Shown piece by piece: positions 14,844 through 36,987 of a DNA stretch of 64,000 bases. The notes below the pieces were generated by a model that had not been told where the DNA came from, did not search any database, and saw only the letters and a list, made by a program, of their open reading frames with translations. Every line of letters starts with the position of its first letter. The stretch's first letter is position 1. The DNA is from Peribacillus frigoritolerans. Its GTDB lineage: Bacteria > Bacillota > Bacilli > Bacillales > DSM-1321. The stretch covers positions 4,258,778 to 4,322,777 of the forward strand of contig NZ_KV440950.1 of the NCBI RefSeq assembly GCF_001636405.1. The letters are read 5' to 3'. The translations under genes and the position numbers were made by a program.

Positions 14844-15136
14844 ACCTTTTCACCTCATAATTTGAACTTCCATTTATCCGTATGTAGACGAATGACCATT
14901 TGTGCAACCTTTGCTCTGAACAGTCTCGAATTTGATTTCAATTTGATCTATTTTTGAAATTGATGCATCAGAAAATATTCCCTGTTTATTTTTTGAAAAA
15001 ACCCCTATATTTTTTAGCTTTCTTGCCCTAGAATTGATATAGTGTTGGTAATGATTTAAATATGGTCAAAAGTCATTTCAGGCCCTAAATCATTTTTGGA
15101 CAAATTTTCTTATCTTGGAAAAAACGAGGGATTCCT

Positions 15137-15424
15137 ATGTGGGAATTATTATTAGAATTCGATTATCAAACCGTTCGCCATGCGGTATGGGCAGGTTACT
15201 TATTTACCTTTGTCTTTCCACTGGCCGCGTTTTACTTCTTAAATAAAAAGCAATCGCTCTTGAATGATAAATATCAAGCTTCCGTTCATACAGATAAAAG
15301 TAAATCCCCTGTTCATACAGGCAGCACCTTTGACTGGCGCGGTGCACAGCGCTTTTTCACCTTTATCAGGCAAAAAGATTCACCAGATGATTCCGATGAG
15401 CCAAGCCTCCTTCTAGTTGTTTAA
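15137..15424 (+). CDS. mifM: MifM-like membrane-insertion sensor / regulatory leader of yidC
   Basis: 95 residues. A short N terminus (17 residues) is followed by one transmembrane segment (about 16-35), KK at 37-38 (positive-inside, so C terminus in the cytosol), a polar linker, and a C-terminal tail QRFFTFIRQKDSPDDSDEP followed by SLLLVV. B. subtilis MifM is also 95 residues, has one N-terminal membrane segment, precedes yidC2, and stalls its own translation through a tail of the form RIxxWI...SP...DEED..SLLL unless it is inserted. The R-F-x-T-F-I-R, S-P, D-E and SLLL positions align by eye; the Trp and Met-Asn of the B. subtilis arrest motif are absent. The stop codon lies in the loop of a hairpin that masks the yidC ribosome binding site. 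Start: ATG after GAGGGATTCCT. Orthology is inferred from context and architecture as much as sequence. Confidence 0.75.
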   Translation: MWELLLEFDYQTVRHAVWAGYLFTFVFPLAAFYFLNKKQSLLNDKYQASVHTDKSKSPVHTGSTFDWRGAQRFFTFIRQKDSPDDSDEPSLLLVV

Positions 15425-15444
15425 ACATTAACAATTCGAGGAGG
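15406..15444 (+). promoter_or_regulatory. hairpin sequestering the yidC Shine-Dalgarno
   Basis: CCTCCTT (15406-15412, inside the last codons of the leader gene) pairs with GAGGAGG (15438-15444), the yidC ribosome binding site. The stem continues with AGTTGTT (15415-15421) against AACAATT (15430-15436), leaving an 8-base loop that contains the leader stop codon. It has 14 pairs, two of them G-U, with a 2x1 internal loop. A ribosome paused near codons 85-89 would cover the left strand and free the yidC start. Confidence 0.75.
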
Positions 15445-15452
15445 AAATTATA

Positions 15453-16238
15453 TTGAAGAAGAAAAACATGTTTTTAATTGCCGTCCTATTTTTGGCAACG
15501 ACCCTTTTGACTGGTTGCTCAGCAGCAACGAGCGGTCCATTTCATACTGCATTGGTTAACCCCATGACAAAAATGCTGGAATTCAATGCTGGTTTATTTA
15601 ATGGCAACTATGGTTTAAGCATCATCATGATGACATTTTTGATTCGCCTTGTTTTGCTACCACTGACTGCCAAACAATACAAGACACAGCTTAGCATGAA
15701 GACGAAGATGAATGGGCTGAAACCGGAAATGACAGCAATCCAGCAGAAAATCAAAGAGACGAAAGATCCTGCTAAACAAAAGGCCCTTCAGCAGGAAATG
15801 ATGCAGCTTTACCAAAAACATGGAGTCAATCCTTTAAACATGGGCTGCCTGCCGCTCTTAATTCAAATGCCGATCCTAATGGGCTTTTATTATGCGATTC
15901 AAGGTTCCCATGAAATTGCGACCCATAGTTTCCTTTGGTACAGCCTAGGTCAGCCGAATATTGCCATGGCGATAATCGCTGGTGTCATTTATTACTTCCA
16001 ATCGGTCATTTCCGTGAGACAAATGCCGGAAGAACAGCAGAAACAAATGAAGATGATGAGCTTGCTCTCACCAGCAATGATTTTATTCATTTCTTTCTCT
16101 GCTCCTGCTGCATTGCCACTATATTGGTCAATCGGTGGTATATTCATGATTGTTCAGTCAATCGTGCTTCAACGAATATATAAAAAAGACCATGCCGCTG
16201 TCCCGGCTGCAAATGAAACGGTCATGAAAAAAAGCTAA
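15453..16238 (+). CDS. yidC: membrane protein insertase YidC (YidC2/YqjG type)
   Basis: 261-residue YidC/Oxa1/SpoIIIJ-family insertase. The lipoprotein signal peptide MKKKNMFLIAVLFLATTLLTGC ends at lipobox cysteine C22. Membrane segments follow, with the hydrophilic-groove region SIIMMTFLIRLVLLPLT (conserved Arg), a cytoplasmic coiled hairpin (KMNGLKPEMTAIQQKIKETKD...) and NPLNMGCLPLLIQMPILMGFYYAI. It inserts membrane proteins alone or with Sec. The start codon is TTG, with a strong GAGGAGG that is buried in a hairpin formed with the end of the upstream leader. This and the lipoprotein form support the inducible second copy (YidC2) rather than the rnpA-linked housekeeping copy. Confidence 0.92.
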   Translation: MKKKNMFLIAVLFLATTLLTGCSAATSGPFHTALVNPMTKMLEFNAGLFNGNYGLSIIMMTFLIRLVLLPLTAKQYKTQLSMKTKMNGLKPEMTAIQQKIKETKDPAKQKALQQEMMQLYQKHGVNPLNMGCLPLLIQMPILMGFYYAIQGSHEIATHSFLWYSLGQPNIAMAIIAGVIYYFQSVISVRQMPEEQQKQMKMMSLLSPAMILFISFSAPAALPLYWSIGGIFMIVQSIVLQRIYKKDHAAVPAANETVMKKS

Positions 16239-16260
16239 TCCACTTGGATTAGCTTTTTTC
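16228..16260. terminator. bidirectional terminator
   Basis: Stem AAAAAGCTAATCC/GGATTAGCTTTTT directly after the yidC stop, between the convergent yidC and cphA genes. Confidence 0.9.
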
Positions 16261-16322: not shown

Positions 16323-18944
16323 TTATTTCTTCGGCAATGGATTTGTTGAAACCTTTTCGAAAAATTTCTCTACATATTCGAAATCCGTATAAAAGAACAA
16401 TAATAGGTCACCCGGTTGTGATTTCTCCCAAGCTTTTATGAATGCGTCCAATTCATTAAGTTCGATGAATGTCCGATCTTTTTGTAACCCAGCTTCTACC
16501 GCAGCATCCTGAAGCAGCCCGGCTACTTCTAACGGCTCCCTTCCCCGCAAATCATCGTCTTCTTTAATGATGAACAGATCGGAATTAATGGCCGCTACCT
16601 TGGAGAGTCTGATAAGTTCTTCATCAATACGGTCCCCCGGCCCTGCCAAAACAGTGATAAGATGATTTTTGTTATAGGCACTGACCGTTTCGAATATGGC
16701 CTTCAATCCCGCTTCATTATGAGCATAGTCGATGATGATCGTGCGCTCTTTAAACTTTTTCAAATTGAACCGTCCTTTGGACAAATTCGTATCAGGCATA
16801 AATGTGGCAGCCTTCCTTCTTAGTTCTTCCATGGAAATGCCTTGTGTTTCGGCTGCGGCTAACGCCTGAAGTAAATTGGCGATATTATGACGTGCCATGC
16901 CGGAGATCGTAATTGGAACCATGGTGCAATCCATAAATGGATGGATGACTCCATCAGCTGAATGACAAATGACACCTTTTTCATTGACGTACCAAACTTT
17001 ACATCCCTTATCTATCGCAGCTTTCACGTGAGGCTGGGTGGCATCTGTAGAGGTGTAAATGACCTCCCCATCTGTATAAGCGTTCATGGCAGCTACATTC
17101 GGATCATCTGCATTCAGTACACAATAGCCTGTTTTCATTACGACTTCAGCTACAAGCCTCTTTAATTTAATGAGATCATCCAATGTATCGATTCCATCAC
17201 GGCCGAGGTGATCCTCACTTACATTGGTGATGATCCCCACATCACATTTACGAAAAGCAAGACCTTCACGCAGAATCCCGCCCCGGGCCGTTTCCAATAC
17301 GGCAATATCGACTTCAGGATGGGACAATACCATTCTTGCACTGACGGGGCCACTGCAGTCACCGCGATCCAATACCTCATCGCCGATATATACTCCATCA
17401 GAATTTGTCATCCCAACTTTTGTTTTTTCATTAGTAAGAAAATAATGAATCAATCGGGTTGTTGTCGTCTTGCCATTTGTTCCGGTCACTGCAATGATCG
17501 GTATAGCCGCCTCTTCCCTGGTCGGAAATAAATAATCGACAATGGCTTTGCCTACATCCCTTTTTTTCCCTTCACTCGGATAATGATGCATTCGAATTCC
17601 CGGTGCAGCATTCACTTCAATAATTGCAGTCCTTGAATGTTCGATCGGTTTTGATATATCCTCACAAATAAAATCTATTCCGGCGATATCCAAACCGATC
17701 GCTTTCGCAGCTGCAACAGCCATATTCTTAATGGTCGGATGTACCTGATCCGTTACATCGATTGCCTTTCCGCCAGTCGAAAGATTTGCATTGCCGACAA
17801 CTTGAACCAATTCCCCTTGATTCGGAATCGTATCGAGCGTCCGATTCGATTTTTCCAAGTAACACGTCACGGTATGTGTAAGTGGGATTTTTGACATCGG
17901 CTTTTCATGACCTTCTCCCCGCCAATCATTACAATTTTCCTTTTCTATCAAACTGCGTATCGTTTCCTTGCCATTGCCAATAACATAGGGTGGAAGCCTC
18001 AAACTGGCGGCGATAAGTTCTCCATTAACTATCAGTAACCGATAATCATGTCCTTCAATATGCCGTTCGATAATATACTTCTCCACATGCAACTCCAAAC
18101 AATTGATTACATTGAATAGCTCATCCTTATTTTTGATATGGGTGATGACACCCTGACCCTGTCTCCCATTATACGGTTTTATGACCAGCGGAAAACCCAG
18201 CCTGTCCGCCGAGGCAAAGATATCTTCAATGGAATGGGCAACTTCCCCTTCAGGTACAGGGAGGCCACATCCTCTTAAAATGGATTTGGTCAATGCTTTG
18301 TCACATGAATTCTCAACCGCAATATTCGAAGTCTGGCTAGAGATTGTCGCCTGGACATACTTCTGCCTTGCACCTGTTCCTAAACGCAGTAAGCTTTCAT
18401 CACCCATTCGCTCGACAGGGATATCTTTTGCTTGCGCTGCCTTAAAAATGGCTTCGGTACTTGGCCCCAGTTTATTTTTATAATATAACTGCTCTATCTG
18501 TTTTACATAGGATTGTACATTTATAAGTTTTTCACCATTCAGGATGGCTTCCGCGATATCTTTTGCCGCTAAAAAAGCTTGAAGACCTGAGTGAGGCTCC
18601 TGATAGTCAAAGGTAACATAATAAAAACCCTTCTTTTCCATCATTATCGTTTTTCCCCGAATGGCTTCGATTCCAGCCAAGTTTTGAAGCTCAATCGTCA
18701 TATGCTCCAATATATGTCCCATCCATGTTCCTTTTCTCAGCCTTTCGGCGAATCCGCCTCGATACCCTTTTGAACATGTATGGCTTCCCAAGTTCGGGAG
18801 CACCTTTAACAATTTTTCATTGAATCCAGGTATTGAATCAGATGGTTTCTGTTCCAGTTCCCCTATATCCAATTCAATGCAAATCGTAGGTGTATAAGCA
18901 AAATAATTAGGTCCTTTTAAATAACGGACTCGATTGATCTTCAT
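16323..18944 (-). CDS. cphA: cyanophycin synthetase
   Basis: 873 residues, the full length of CphA, which polymerises Asp and Arg into the storage polymer multi-L-arginyl-poly-L-aspartate using ATP. The N-terminal domain (1-200) carries GTWMGHILEHMTIELQNLAG. An ATP-grasp domain (about 210-480) has VIKPYNGRQGQGVITHI and EVNAAPGIRMHHYPS. A Mur-ligase-like domain from about 485 begins with the P-loop AVTGTNGKTTTT, followed by NVSEDHLGRDG and DYAHNEAG. Both catalytic halves are intact. Its ATG overlaps the cyanophycinase stop by 4 bases, so the two genes form an operon for making and breaking down the polymer. Confidence 0.95.
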   Translation of the reverse strand: MKINRVRYLKGPNYFAYTPTICIELDIGELEQKPSDSIPGFNEKLLKVLPNLGSHTCSKGYRGGFAERLRKGTWMGHILEHMTIELQNLAGIEAIRGKTIMMEKKGFYYVTFDYQEPHSGLQAFLAAKDIAEAILNGEKLINVQSYVKQIEQLYYKNKLGPSTEAIFKAAQAKDIPVERMGDESLLRLGTGARQKYVQATISSQTSNIAVENSCDKALTKSILRGCGLPVPEGEVAHSIEDIFASADRLGFPLVIKPYNGRQGQGVITHIKNKDELFNVINCLELHVEKYIIERHIEGHDYRLLIVNGELIAASLRLPPYVIGNGKETIRSLIEKENCNDWRGEGHEKPMSKIPLTHTVTCYLEKSNRTLDTIPNQGELVQVVGNANLSTGGKAIDVTDQVHPTIKNMAVAAAKAIGLDIAGIDFICEDISKPIEHSRTAIIEVNAAPGIRMHHYPSEGKKRDVGKAIVDYLFPTREEAAIPIIAVTGTNGKTTTTRLIHYFLTNEKTKVGMTNSDGVYIGDEVLDRGDCSGPVSARMVLSHPEVDIAVLETARGGILREGLAFRKCDVGIITNVSEDHLGRDGIDTLDDLIKLKRLVAEVVMKTGYCVLNADDPNVAAMNAYTDGEVIYTSTDATQPHVKAAIDKGCKVWYVNEKGVICHSADGVIHPFMDCTMVPITISGMARHNIANLLQALAAAETQGISMEELRRKAATFMPDTNLSKGRFNLKKFKERTIIIDYAHNEAGLKAIFETVSAYNKNHLITVLAGPGDRIDEELIRLSKVAAINSDLFIIKEDDDLRGREPLEVAGLLQDAAVEAGLQKDRTFIELNELDAFIKAWEKSQPGDLLLFFYTDFEYVEKFFEKVSTNPLPKK

Positions 18945-19753
18945 TGTTGGATCCCCTTTTTCATCAACAATTTCCTTGTAAGCAGGTCAAAACGGTATCC
19001 CCTGGTTAGTGCATGAAGGTTGAATCCCGAAAGAGTCAACTCTTCACTGCCATTATCAGAAGATGTGATATTGATATAATCACTGGTGCTGCCATCAAGA
19101 ACCAATACTTGATGTTGGCCGACTACTTCAAAATGACCGTCTTTAACTAAAATTGCTGTATTTTCATCAATGCCAATACCCATAATTTCCTTTTTCCCTG
19201 CTATTGCACTTAACAGACGATCAAACCGGCCACGCTGGGAAAAGTGTTGATCGATTATCAGTCCGTCCAGGAAGCCGAAACCTACGCCAATTTCAACCTT
19301 TAACTTATCGTCATTCAGCATCGTGTCAGCAGCAACGATCATATACTTACCTAAAATCGAAGCACCAGCACTTGTCCCTGCTATCACCATTCCTTCATGC
19401 CAGGCTTTAGAAAGGGCATCGTGGAACTTTGTTTTCCCAATCAGTTCAGACAATCGGCTTTGGTTTCCCCCTGAAATGAAGATGGCGGAAAAAGATGCAA
19501 GCTGTTCACAAATTGCCGGATCGTCTGCATCCTGCCTTGAATCCAGCTTGATCACTTCCACCCTGTCCACACCTAAATCCCTGAAAATCTTGATATACTC
19601 TGTACTCACTTCCTCAGGAATTTCACTCGCTGTCGGCAATATTCCTATTCCGCCTTCGCTATGGGTTGCAAGTTCGACAAATTTATTTAATACTTCACCT
19701 TCAAGGCACTTATCCTCTGCCCCGCCAATGATAAGTAATTCACCACAATTCAT
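18941..19753 (-). CDS. cphB: cyanophycinase
   Basis: 270-residue peptidase of family S51, which cleaves cyanophycin to beta-Asp-Arg dipeptides. The catalytic serine is S128 in GTSAGAS (126-132). LIIGGAEDK at the N terminus, FISGGNQSRL near 93 and DQHFSQRGRFDRL are conserved family blocks. Start: ATG after AAAGGTGA. It is first in the cphB-cphA operon. No isoaspartyl dipeptidase gene, which would finish degradation, is in the window; an M42 aminopeptidase gene lies 0.9 kb further on the same strand but in a separate unit. Confidence 0.93.
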   Translation of the reverse strand: MNCGELLIIGGAEDKCLEGEVLNKFVELATHSEGGIGILPTASEIPEEVSTEYIKIFRDLGVDRVEVIKLDSRQDADDPAICEQLASFSAIFISGGNQSRLSELIGKTKFHDALSKAWHEGMVIAGTSAGASILGKYMIVAADTMLNDDKLKVEIGVGFGFLDGLIIDQHFSQRGRFDRLLSAIAGKKEIMGIGIDENTAILVKDGHFEVVGQHQVLVLDGSTSDYINITSSDNGSEELTLSGFNLHALTRGYRFDLLTRKLLMKKGIQQ

Positions 19754-36597: not shown

Positions 36598-36703
36598 TTC
36601 TTATCTTCCAAGCATATGCTTGTTGGATTTAGCACAGTTCCCTAAACGGGTCCGCTGCCGAGGTTTCTTAGGGCCAAGTCCCTCCACCTCTCTGGATAAG
36701 AAT
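36598..36703 (-). ncRNA. SAM-I (S-box) riboswitch
   Basis: The reverse strand reads CTTATCCAGAGAGGTGGAGG, GACTTGGCCC, GAAACCTCGGCAGC, ACTGTGCTAAATCC, then GCTTGGAAGATAAG. These are the conserved P1, kink-turn, P3, P4 and J4/1 elements of the S-box in order; P1 closes CTTATC with GATAAG. The promoter TTGACT-N17-TAGAAT (rc 36728-36756) lies upstream and an intrinsic terminator follows. No methionine or cysteine gene lies downstream on this strand: the next frames are the FbpA-like gene and spo0E. Confidence 0.93.
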
Positions 36704-36840: not shown

Positions 36841-36861
36841 GTCAGTAATTACATACAATTC

Positions 36862-36953
36862 ACACCACTAGGGGAGTCTTTTTTAAGACTGAGATGGAAT
36901 TAGTTCCGGACCCTTTGAACCTGAACCGGCTCATACCGGCGGAGGGAAGTGGA
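36862..36953 (+). ncRNA. TPP (THI-box) riboswitch
   Basis: Conserved blocks in order: ACTAGGGGAGTC, AAGACTGAGATGG, GGACCCTTTGAACCTGAACC, then CGGCGGAGGGAAGTGG. This is the thiamine pyrophosphate aptamer, placed before the thiamine salvage genes. A terminator hairpin (36988-37018) forms the expression platform. Confidence 0.95.
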
Positions 36954-36987
36954 TGATATCGTCCATTTTACAGACTATATCCATCTA

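Follow-up and report, generated by a model that had tools for sequence, protein, structure and literature searches.

The window analysed in this study, a 64,000-nt stretch of the genome of Peribacillus frigoritolerans, carries a 95-codon leader ORF placed directly before yidC2, and it is quite probable that the encoded peptide is a YidC monitoring substrate, which works like MifM of Bacillus subtilis and gates the expression of yidC2. A MifM-type YidC monitor is the best reading of the locus by its position, its anatomy, the selection acting on the peptide and the register of the mRNA gate. The computations show the anatomy, its conservation, the hiding of the Shine-Dalgarno sequence of yidC2 and a stall register compatible with gating; stalling, its release by membrane insertion and the induction of YidC2 are what we infer from MifM. 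According to the proposed mechanism, an mRNA hairpin would hide the Shine-Dalgarno (SD) sequence of yidC2. A ribosome translating the leader would stall once approximately codon 87-90 has reached the P site, just past the acidic cluster, as a result of contacts of the peptide tail with the exit tunnel and the peptidyl transferase centre; by covering the anti-SD arm it would free the SD, so that YidC2 could be made. Insertion of the transmembrane (TM) segment of the leader by SpoIIIJ or YidC2 would exert a pull that releases the stall, whereupon the hairpin would reform and YidC2 synthesis would be switched off.

Organization of the leader-yidC2 locus

The following features were distinguished (window coordinates, strand):

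15038..15043, +, TATAGT, probable -10 element for transcription of leader and yidC2 (found no more than 140 nt upstream at 27 of the 29 genus loci examined)
15126..15130, +, GAGGG, SD of the leader (just 5' of the start in 28 of the 29 genus loci examined)
15137..15424, +, probable MifM-type leader of 95 codons (ORF; 30 of the 36 genus genomes have a homologue)
15185..15244, +, TM segment, approximately residues 17-36 (KD19 maximum of 1.74 at residues 17-35)
15338..15406, +, putative arrest tail, residues 68-90, RGAQRFFTFIRQKDSPDDSDEPS (low dN/dS; relatives)
15386..15400, +, acidic cluster D84-D85-S86-D87-E88, with the predicted stall window from codon 87-88 (opening codon 87, last acidic residue 88)
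15406..15412, +, CCTCCTT, anti-SD arm, codons 90-92 (fold, synonymous shuffles, genus alignment)
15415..15421, +, 5' arm of the inner stem of seven pairs (partner 15430-15436)
15438..15444, +, GAGGAGG, SD of yidC2, predicted to be sequestered (fold; invariant in 29 aligned genus loci)
15453..16238, +, yidC2, TTG start, secondary membrane insertase (PF02096, E 1e-45; TIGR03592; YidC2 clade)
16228..16259, +, hairpin resembling an intrinsic terminator and spanning the yidC2 stop (recognised in the sequence)

The leader, which starts with ATG at 15137, ends with TAA at 15422-15424 and has a tail reading QRFFTFIRQKDSPDDSDEPSLLLVV, is a small uORF on the same strand as yidC2, directly upstream of it and separated by a gap of 28 nt. 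A leader of 95 codons with a single TM segment (15137-15424) in front of a YidC2-type gene (15453-16238) is thus present as the preliminary description of this DNA had reported. The TM segment was called by hydropathy only (KD19); as judged from the flanking charges alone (a more acidic N-terminal flank, followed by K37 and K38), its topology is probably N-out/C-in. The leader and yidC2 are likely to form one transcription unit with TATAGT as its -10 element, although this motif is absent from the promoter scan list and has no clear -35 partner. Likewise, the hairpin over the yidC2 stop is not in the terminator scan list. Comparison of the leader with PDB, Pfam and NCBIfam revealed no match above chance or cut-off.

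The genome (5.46 Mb) contains two YidC genes, i.e. a SpoIIIJ-type gene at G000:C1:252649-253206 and the yidC2 of the window. The latter is faced by genes of a cyanophycin synthetase and a cyanophycinase (window 16323-19753, minus strand). Elsewhere in the window, SAM and TPP riboswitches lie back to back on opposite strands (36598-36702, minus; 36860-36964, plus).

Comparison with known YidC-monitoring leaders

The Peribacillus leader shares with MifM of B. subtilis (i) the location directly upstream of a YidC2-clade gene, (ii) a single N-terminal TM segment and a length of 95 codons, (iii) an acidic cluster near the end, (iv) an SD-sequestering hairpin, (v) the presence of SpoIIIJ in the same genome and (vi) Ser-Pro at positions 82-83 (S82 of MifM is taken from PMC4423224, and the Pro from leaders L145 and L158, which were called B. 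subtilis-type by comparing their RITTWI...RMNSP tails with the published motif). Unlike MifM, it lacks R69-I70, W73-I74 and M80-N81 in the ungapped register, its acidic residues start two positions earlier, are split by a Ser (DDSDE versus DEED) and are followed by Pro89, ribosomal protein uL22 has Gln90 in place of Met90, and there is no detectable overall similarity between the leaders.

CliM of Clostridia (PMC13183943) is also a YidC-monitoring leader with an N-terminal TM segment and an mRNA structure repressing the downstream yidC. It differs in its K-Y-x-I-W motif (PMC10987492), which is absent from the Peribacillus leader, and has been set apart from MifM as not resting on an acidic cluster (PMC13183943). 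The actinobacterial ApcA (PMC7897499) is likewise a TM leader before a presumably secondary yidC, but its R-A-P-G-like end (PMC10987492) is absent from the Peribacillus leader, and no SD-hiding hairpin was predicted for it (PMC7897499).

MifM-type leaders were counted in 592 Firmicutes genomes by Fujiwara et al. 2024 (PMC10987492), who used clustering, negative charge and the presence of a localisation signal as selection criteria. The name Peribacillus does not occur in the main text of that article. A search by titles and abstract openings found no publication on the Peribacillus leader; the match combining Peribacillus with YidC concerned family demarcation.

Distribution of the leader and of YidC2

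In a quick YidC tree of 146 proteins (136 YidC2 and 10 SpoIIIJ; 15 near-copies were left out) the YidC2 of the window is placed inside the YidC2 clade, separate from SpoIIIJ (100* SH-aLRT). The analysis of 36 genus genomes revealed the leader in 30 (E 1.9e-16 or better), and YidC2 of the window type (67-100% identity) in exactly the same 30, the two never occurring apart. Four of the 36 have a single SpoIIIJ-like YidC match and neither the leader nor the window-type YidC2. The other two, G035 and G027, encode another YidC2 (38-53% identity in the matching pieces). G035 has its own leader of 96 codons (L033), ending in TADDDDAYFPPIYMN, and its YidC2 groups with the B. subtilis-type YidC2 on a long branch (94, not starred). 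The leader of G027 (L034), 96% identical to that of G035, precedes a yidC2 with a frame change in the match; judging by the sequence, this yidC2 appears to be broken, although the leader ORF is intact. Both leaders carry DDDD near the end.

A leader profile search matched three further genomes of the family (G040-G042, E about 1e-12). Close copies of the leader (87-98% identity) were found in 11 named records of Peribacillus and of strains named Bacillus sp., the species including Peribacillus frigoritolerans, P. simplex, P. muralis and P. butanolivorans.

At the level of the order, YidC2 was detected at E 1e-58 or better in 142 of 299 genomes. Seven of these belong to the genus, and 117 of the other 135 were taken; the 18 left out were the lowest scoring, except for two low scorers that were included. 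Together with G040-G042 this gave an order set of 120 loci, of which 110 have a leader (L098, L102, L131 and L146 were placed by hand) and ten have none that was found. Nine of the ten leaderless loci, all with YidC2 of the same clade, belong to family f40 (L113, L114, L116, L118, L122, L124, L125, L130 and L137; the tenth is L055). The f40 proteins cluster together in the YidC tree, and the absence of the leader therefore looks like one loss.

Predicted sequestration of the yidC2 Shine-Dalgarno sequence

In the MFE structure, CCUCCUU pairs with the SD of yidC2, seven inner pairs, one of them G-U, extend the stem (15415-15421 with 15430-15436), and the stop codon of the leader sits in the loop. 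The preliminary description had proposed each of these elements from the letters alone, and the pairing of CCTCCTT with GAGGAGG is now also borne out by the synonymous-codon shuffles presented below. The description had further asked for conservation among close relatives; both the tail and the anti-SD arm are kept in the genus.

Compared with plain dinucleotide shuffles the fold does not stand out (z -1.43; 17 of 200 equally good), and no covariation was detected in the stem: none of the 14 pairs has changed on both sides, and the score equals that of shuffles (29 of the 30 genus leaders aligned). Both results speak against the MifM-like reading. Because the SD arm is invariant, a synonymous-codon test was used instead, in which the last 14 codons were shuffled 150 times with the peptide unchanged. 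The SD of the window had an unpaired probability of about 0.00, versus 0.33 in the shuffles (rank 0.007). All 29 window-type genus leaders lie at or below the shuffle median, 23 of them at rank <=0.05; L032, which overlaps yidC2, was left out of this count, and L033, of the other leader type, has rank 0.087. Among the order leaders 79 of 91 are at or below the median and only 34 reach rank <=0.05, the SD chosen by the script being doubtful at a few loci (e.g. L040, L103). When the pairings were slid, the value dropped from 86% to 40-72% of cells, which says only that pairing is kept.

The hairpin alone would also explain simple translational coupling, in which there is no stall, any ribosome that finishes the leader melts the hairpin, and the tail is not an arrest sequence. 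The lack of the B. subtilis arrest residues fits such coupling, stalling of this leader being an extrapolation from MifM. The selection and register data described in the next two sections bear on this alternative.

A different layout was observed in 20 of the 141 leaders (L032, L064, L120, L126, L127, L129, L131, L133-L135, L139-L141, L143, L146, L148-L151, L159), whose reading frames extend across hairpin, SD and yidC2 start and terminate, out of frame with yidC2, 7-131 nt into that gene. Finishing such a leader means crossing the yidC2 start. These leaders were tested separately, and in many of them the SD still appears to be sequestered (rank <=0.05 in 12 of the 20; synonymous shuffles).

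Selection on the leader peptide

Simple pairwise counts over 20 close relatives gave an overall dN/dS of 0.146 for the leader, distributed very unevenly: 0.054 in codons 1-36, 0.24 in the linker (codons 37-66), 0.049 in codons 67-90 and 0.37 in codons 91-95 (yidC2 codons 31-240: 0.041). The low values in codons 1-36 and 67-90 indicate that selection maintains the amino-acid sequence of the N-terminal/TM part and of the tail. At the peptide level the weakest constraint is seen in the final five codons, in which six of the seven anti-SD bases are located.

Purifying selection on the tail (dN/dS 0.049) upstream of the pairing codons is not what coupling alone would lead one to expect, nor are the conserved distance between TM segment and tail and a hairpin register that shifts with the acidic residues in the order; we consider translational coupling without a stall unlikely. 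The constraint on the N-terminal/TM region (0.054), together with the co-occurrence of the leader with the window type of YidC2 in the genus, could instead reflect a small membrane protein that acts itself, e.g. as a partner of YidC2, the hairpin only setting the ratio of the two. Such a protein is very improbable: the linker is variable, length, spacing and acidic tail are kept across the order but few TM residues are, and an acidic tail locked to an mRNA hairpin is of no clear use to a mature protein.

Register between the hairpin and the acidic cluster

A MifM-like monitor is favoured by the point at which the ribosome would open the hairpin. On the assumption that the first base left free lies 16 nt from the P-site codon, the yidC2 SD in the window was computed to be closed for P-site codons 78-86 and open from 87-88, at the end of the acidic cluster. 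Across the order group the position of the opening codon varies with that of the last acidic residue: an opening step is seen at 84 of 111 loci, and in 70 of the 84 it falls within 4 codons of that residue (opening codon minus last acidic residue: median +1, quartiles 0 and 2). The standard deviation of this register is 3.68, versus 5.93 in shuffled data, and none of 2000 shuffles was as low (kinship was ignored). Within the genus the hairpin-acid register is indistinguishable from shuffles (943 of 2000), as there is too little variation there, and 27 of all 141 leaders lack the opening step.

The distance from the end of the TM segment to the end of the acidic cluster is 53 residues in the window, with a median of 53 over the 141 leaders; the published median spacer of MifM is 54 (PMC10987492), measured by a different method. 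The best KD19 value is below 1.6 in 30 of the 141. The five-residue local charge reaches -0.8 in residues 70-100 (by a simple count, not by the published R package), the cut given for MifM being a local charge below -0.3 (PMC10987492).

Putative arrest tail and its relation to the B. subtilis motif

MifM of B. subtilis stalls at codons 89-92, and its arrest needs R69, I70, W73, I74, M80 and N81 as well as the acidic DEED at 86-89 (PMC4423224; PMC6037786). In the ungapped register, all six of the individual residues are absent from the tail of the window, which has G69, A70, F73, F74, K80, D81, S86, D87, E88 and P89; S82-P83 is kept, and acidic residues are located at 84, 85, 87 and 88. Among 25 distinct genus leaders P83 and D84 are each present in 24, and D85 and D87 in all 25.

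The analysis of the order leaders revealed that the B. subtilis residues are themselves scarce, MNxP being present in 2 of 110 and RIxxWI in 5, whereas 104 of the 110 have at least three acidic residues within six. The commonest pattern in the order, (K/R)-R-K-(E/D)-x-P-x-D-D, runs from basic RRK through an acidic residue and Pro to D/E-rich positions. The Peribacillus tail is close to it; its divergence is thus one from B. subtilis and not one from the family. A Trp in the aligned column was observed in 67 of 108 distinct order leaders. There is no Trp in residues 68-82 of the Peribacillus tail, nor does one occur in that region in the 21 leaders associated with YidC2 proteins of the same 99* clade (Peribacillus, f24 and genus g4); 22 of the 30 genus leaders have a Trp at residue 67. 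The tail had been described as diverged, which holds with respect to the missing B. subtilis residues and not with respect to the family, in which these residues are rare, or to the genus, in which the tail is nearly fixed. It is the Met-Asn of B. subtilis, not the Peribacillus tail, that is the family rarity. Our verdict is that this tail would represent a clade-specific variant of an arrest code that is less strict in the family than one would conclude from the B. subtilis motif, and we infer an altered arrest chemistry in the Peribacillus leader.

Profile comparison of 16 of the 30 genus leaders with three B. subtilis-type leaders found no homology (hhalign probability 1.8%). One weak BLASTP stretch was obtained (E 0.008, 28 columns), with RFFTFIR opposite RITTWIR. 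The partner of R72 varies with the alignment, being the Trp column in the MAFFT family alignment and T72 in ungapped numbering. The earlier designation of the leader as an ortholog of MifM can therefore be retained in a qualified sense, by position and by the shared YidC2 clade, and not by any detectable similarity to the B. subtilis-type leaders.

Residue 90 of ribosomal protein uL22

In B. subtilis, Met90 of uL22 strongly influences MifM stalling, lineages with R, Q, K or H at this position are considered unlikely to support it, and with the MifM substitution T72R induction is regained on M90K ribosomes, to as much as about 60% (PMC4423224). The uL22 of the window genome has Gln90, not Met90. 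Among 43 genomes of the family Gln90 is present in 24 and Met90 in 19; each of the 24 belongs to the set of 30 genus genomes that carry the window-type leader, and the remaining six of this set combine Met90 with the same kind of tail. The retention of window-type leaders in Gln90 genomes indicates that such leaders persist on Gln90 ribosomes. In the order (299 genomes, states tallied by pattern) the Met pattern was found in 206 and the Gln pattern in 86, mixed within several families; one genome fits neither and six lack the flanking pattern. Altogether, 22 of the 110 order leaders sit with Gln90.

The combinations of leader residue 72 and uL22 residue 90, counted for 28 of the 30 genus leaders, were R72-Gln90 (21), R72-Met90 (3), G72-Gln90 (2) and Q72-Met90 (2). 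L023 (a two-residue insertion downstream; QRFF, Gln90) and L032 (KRFY, Met90) were kept out of this count, and a QRFF leader also occurs with Met90 in G141. No convincing co-variation of the leader with uL22 residue 90 was detected over the order (49 genus-state groups, 112 tests, best uncorrected p 0.036). Co-evolution of the two residues was thus rejected as a claim and kept as a lead, since R72 occurs with Met90 as well and there is no convincing order-wide association.

A sub-case of the MifM-like reading, which we regard as possible and rather doubtful, is that the Peribacillus leader stalls uL22-Gln90 ribosomes by a separate chemistry, in which E88 would occupy the P site and Pro-tRNA (P89) the A site, and without the contacts made by the Trp, Met-Asn and DEED of B. 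subtilis. DEP is present in 25 of the 30 genus leaders, versus DEP or EEP in 7 of the 110 order leaders, P83-D84-D85 is nearly fixed, the hairpin opens at codon 87, and Gln90 accompanies the leader in 24 of 30 genus genomes. The same kind of tail in the six Met90 genomes argues against this sub-case, as do the lack of a convincing leader-uL22 association in the 49 groups and the uncertain alignment register. It is a speculative and rather unlikely extension that the arrest chemistry has been swapped at the MifM position, E88 facing Pro-tRNA89 on Gln90 ribosomes; Arg72 may then act like T72R, and family-wide nothing would be locked but the acidic cluster, the spacing of the TM segment and the register of the hairpin, with the rest of the arrest code drifting with the ribosome.

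Significance of the Peribacillus leader

A second way of controlling yidC2 is suggested by the leaders that overlap this gene in other families of the order. Through the coupling of the hairpin to the last acidic residue, it becomes possible to predict from sequence at which codon other leaders would stall. If the Peribacillus leader stalls, it would serve as a natural test of the requirements for MifM-type arrest, because most of the residues considered essential in B. subtilis are missing from it and its ribosome is without the uL22 residue that determined species specificity there.
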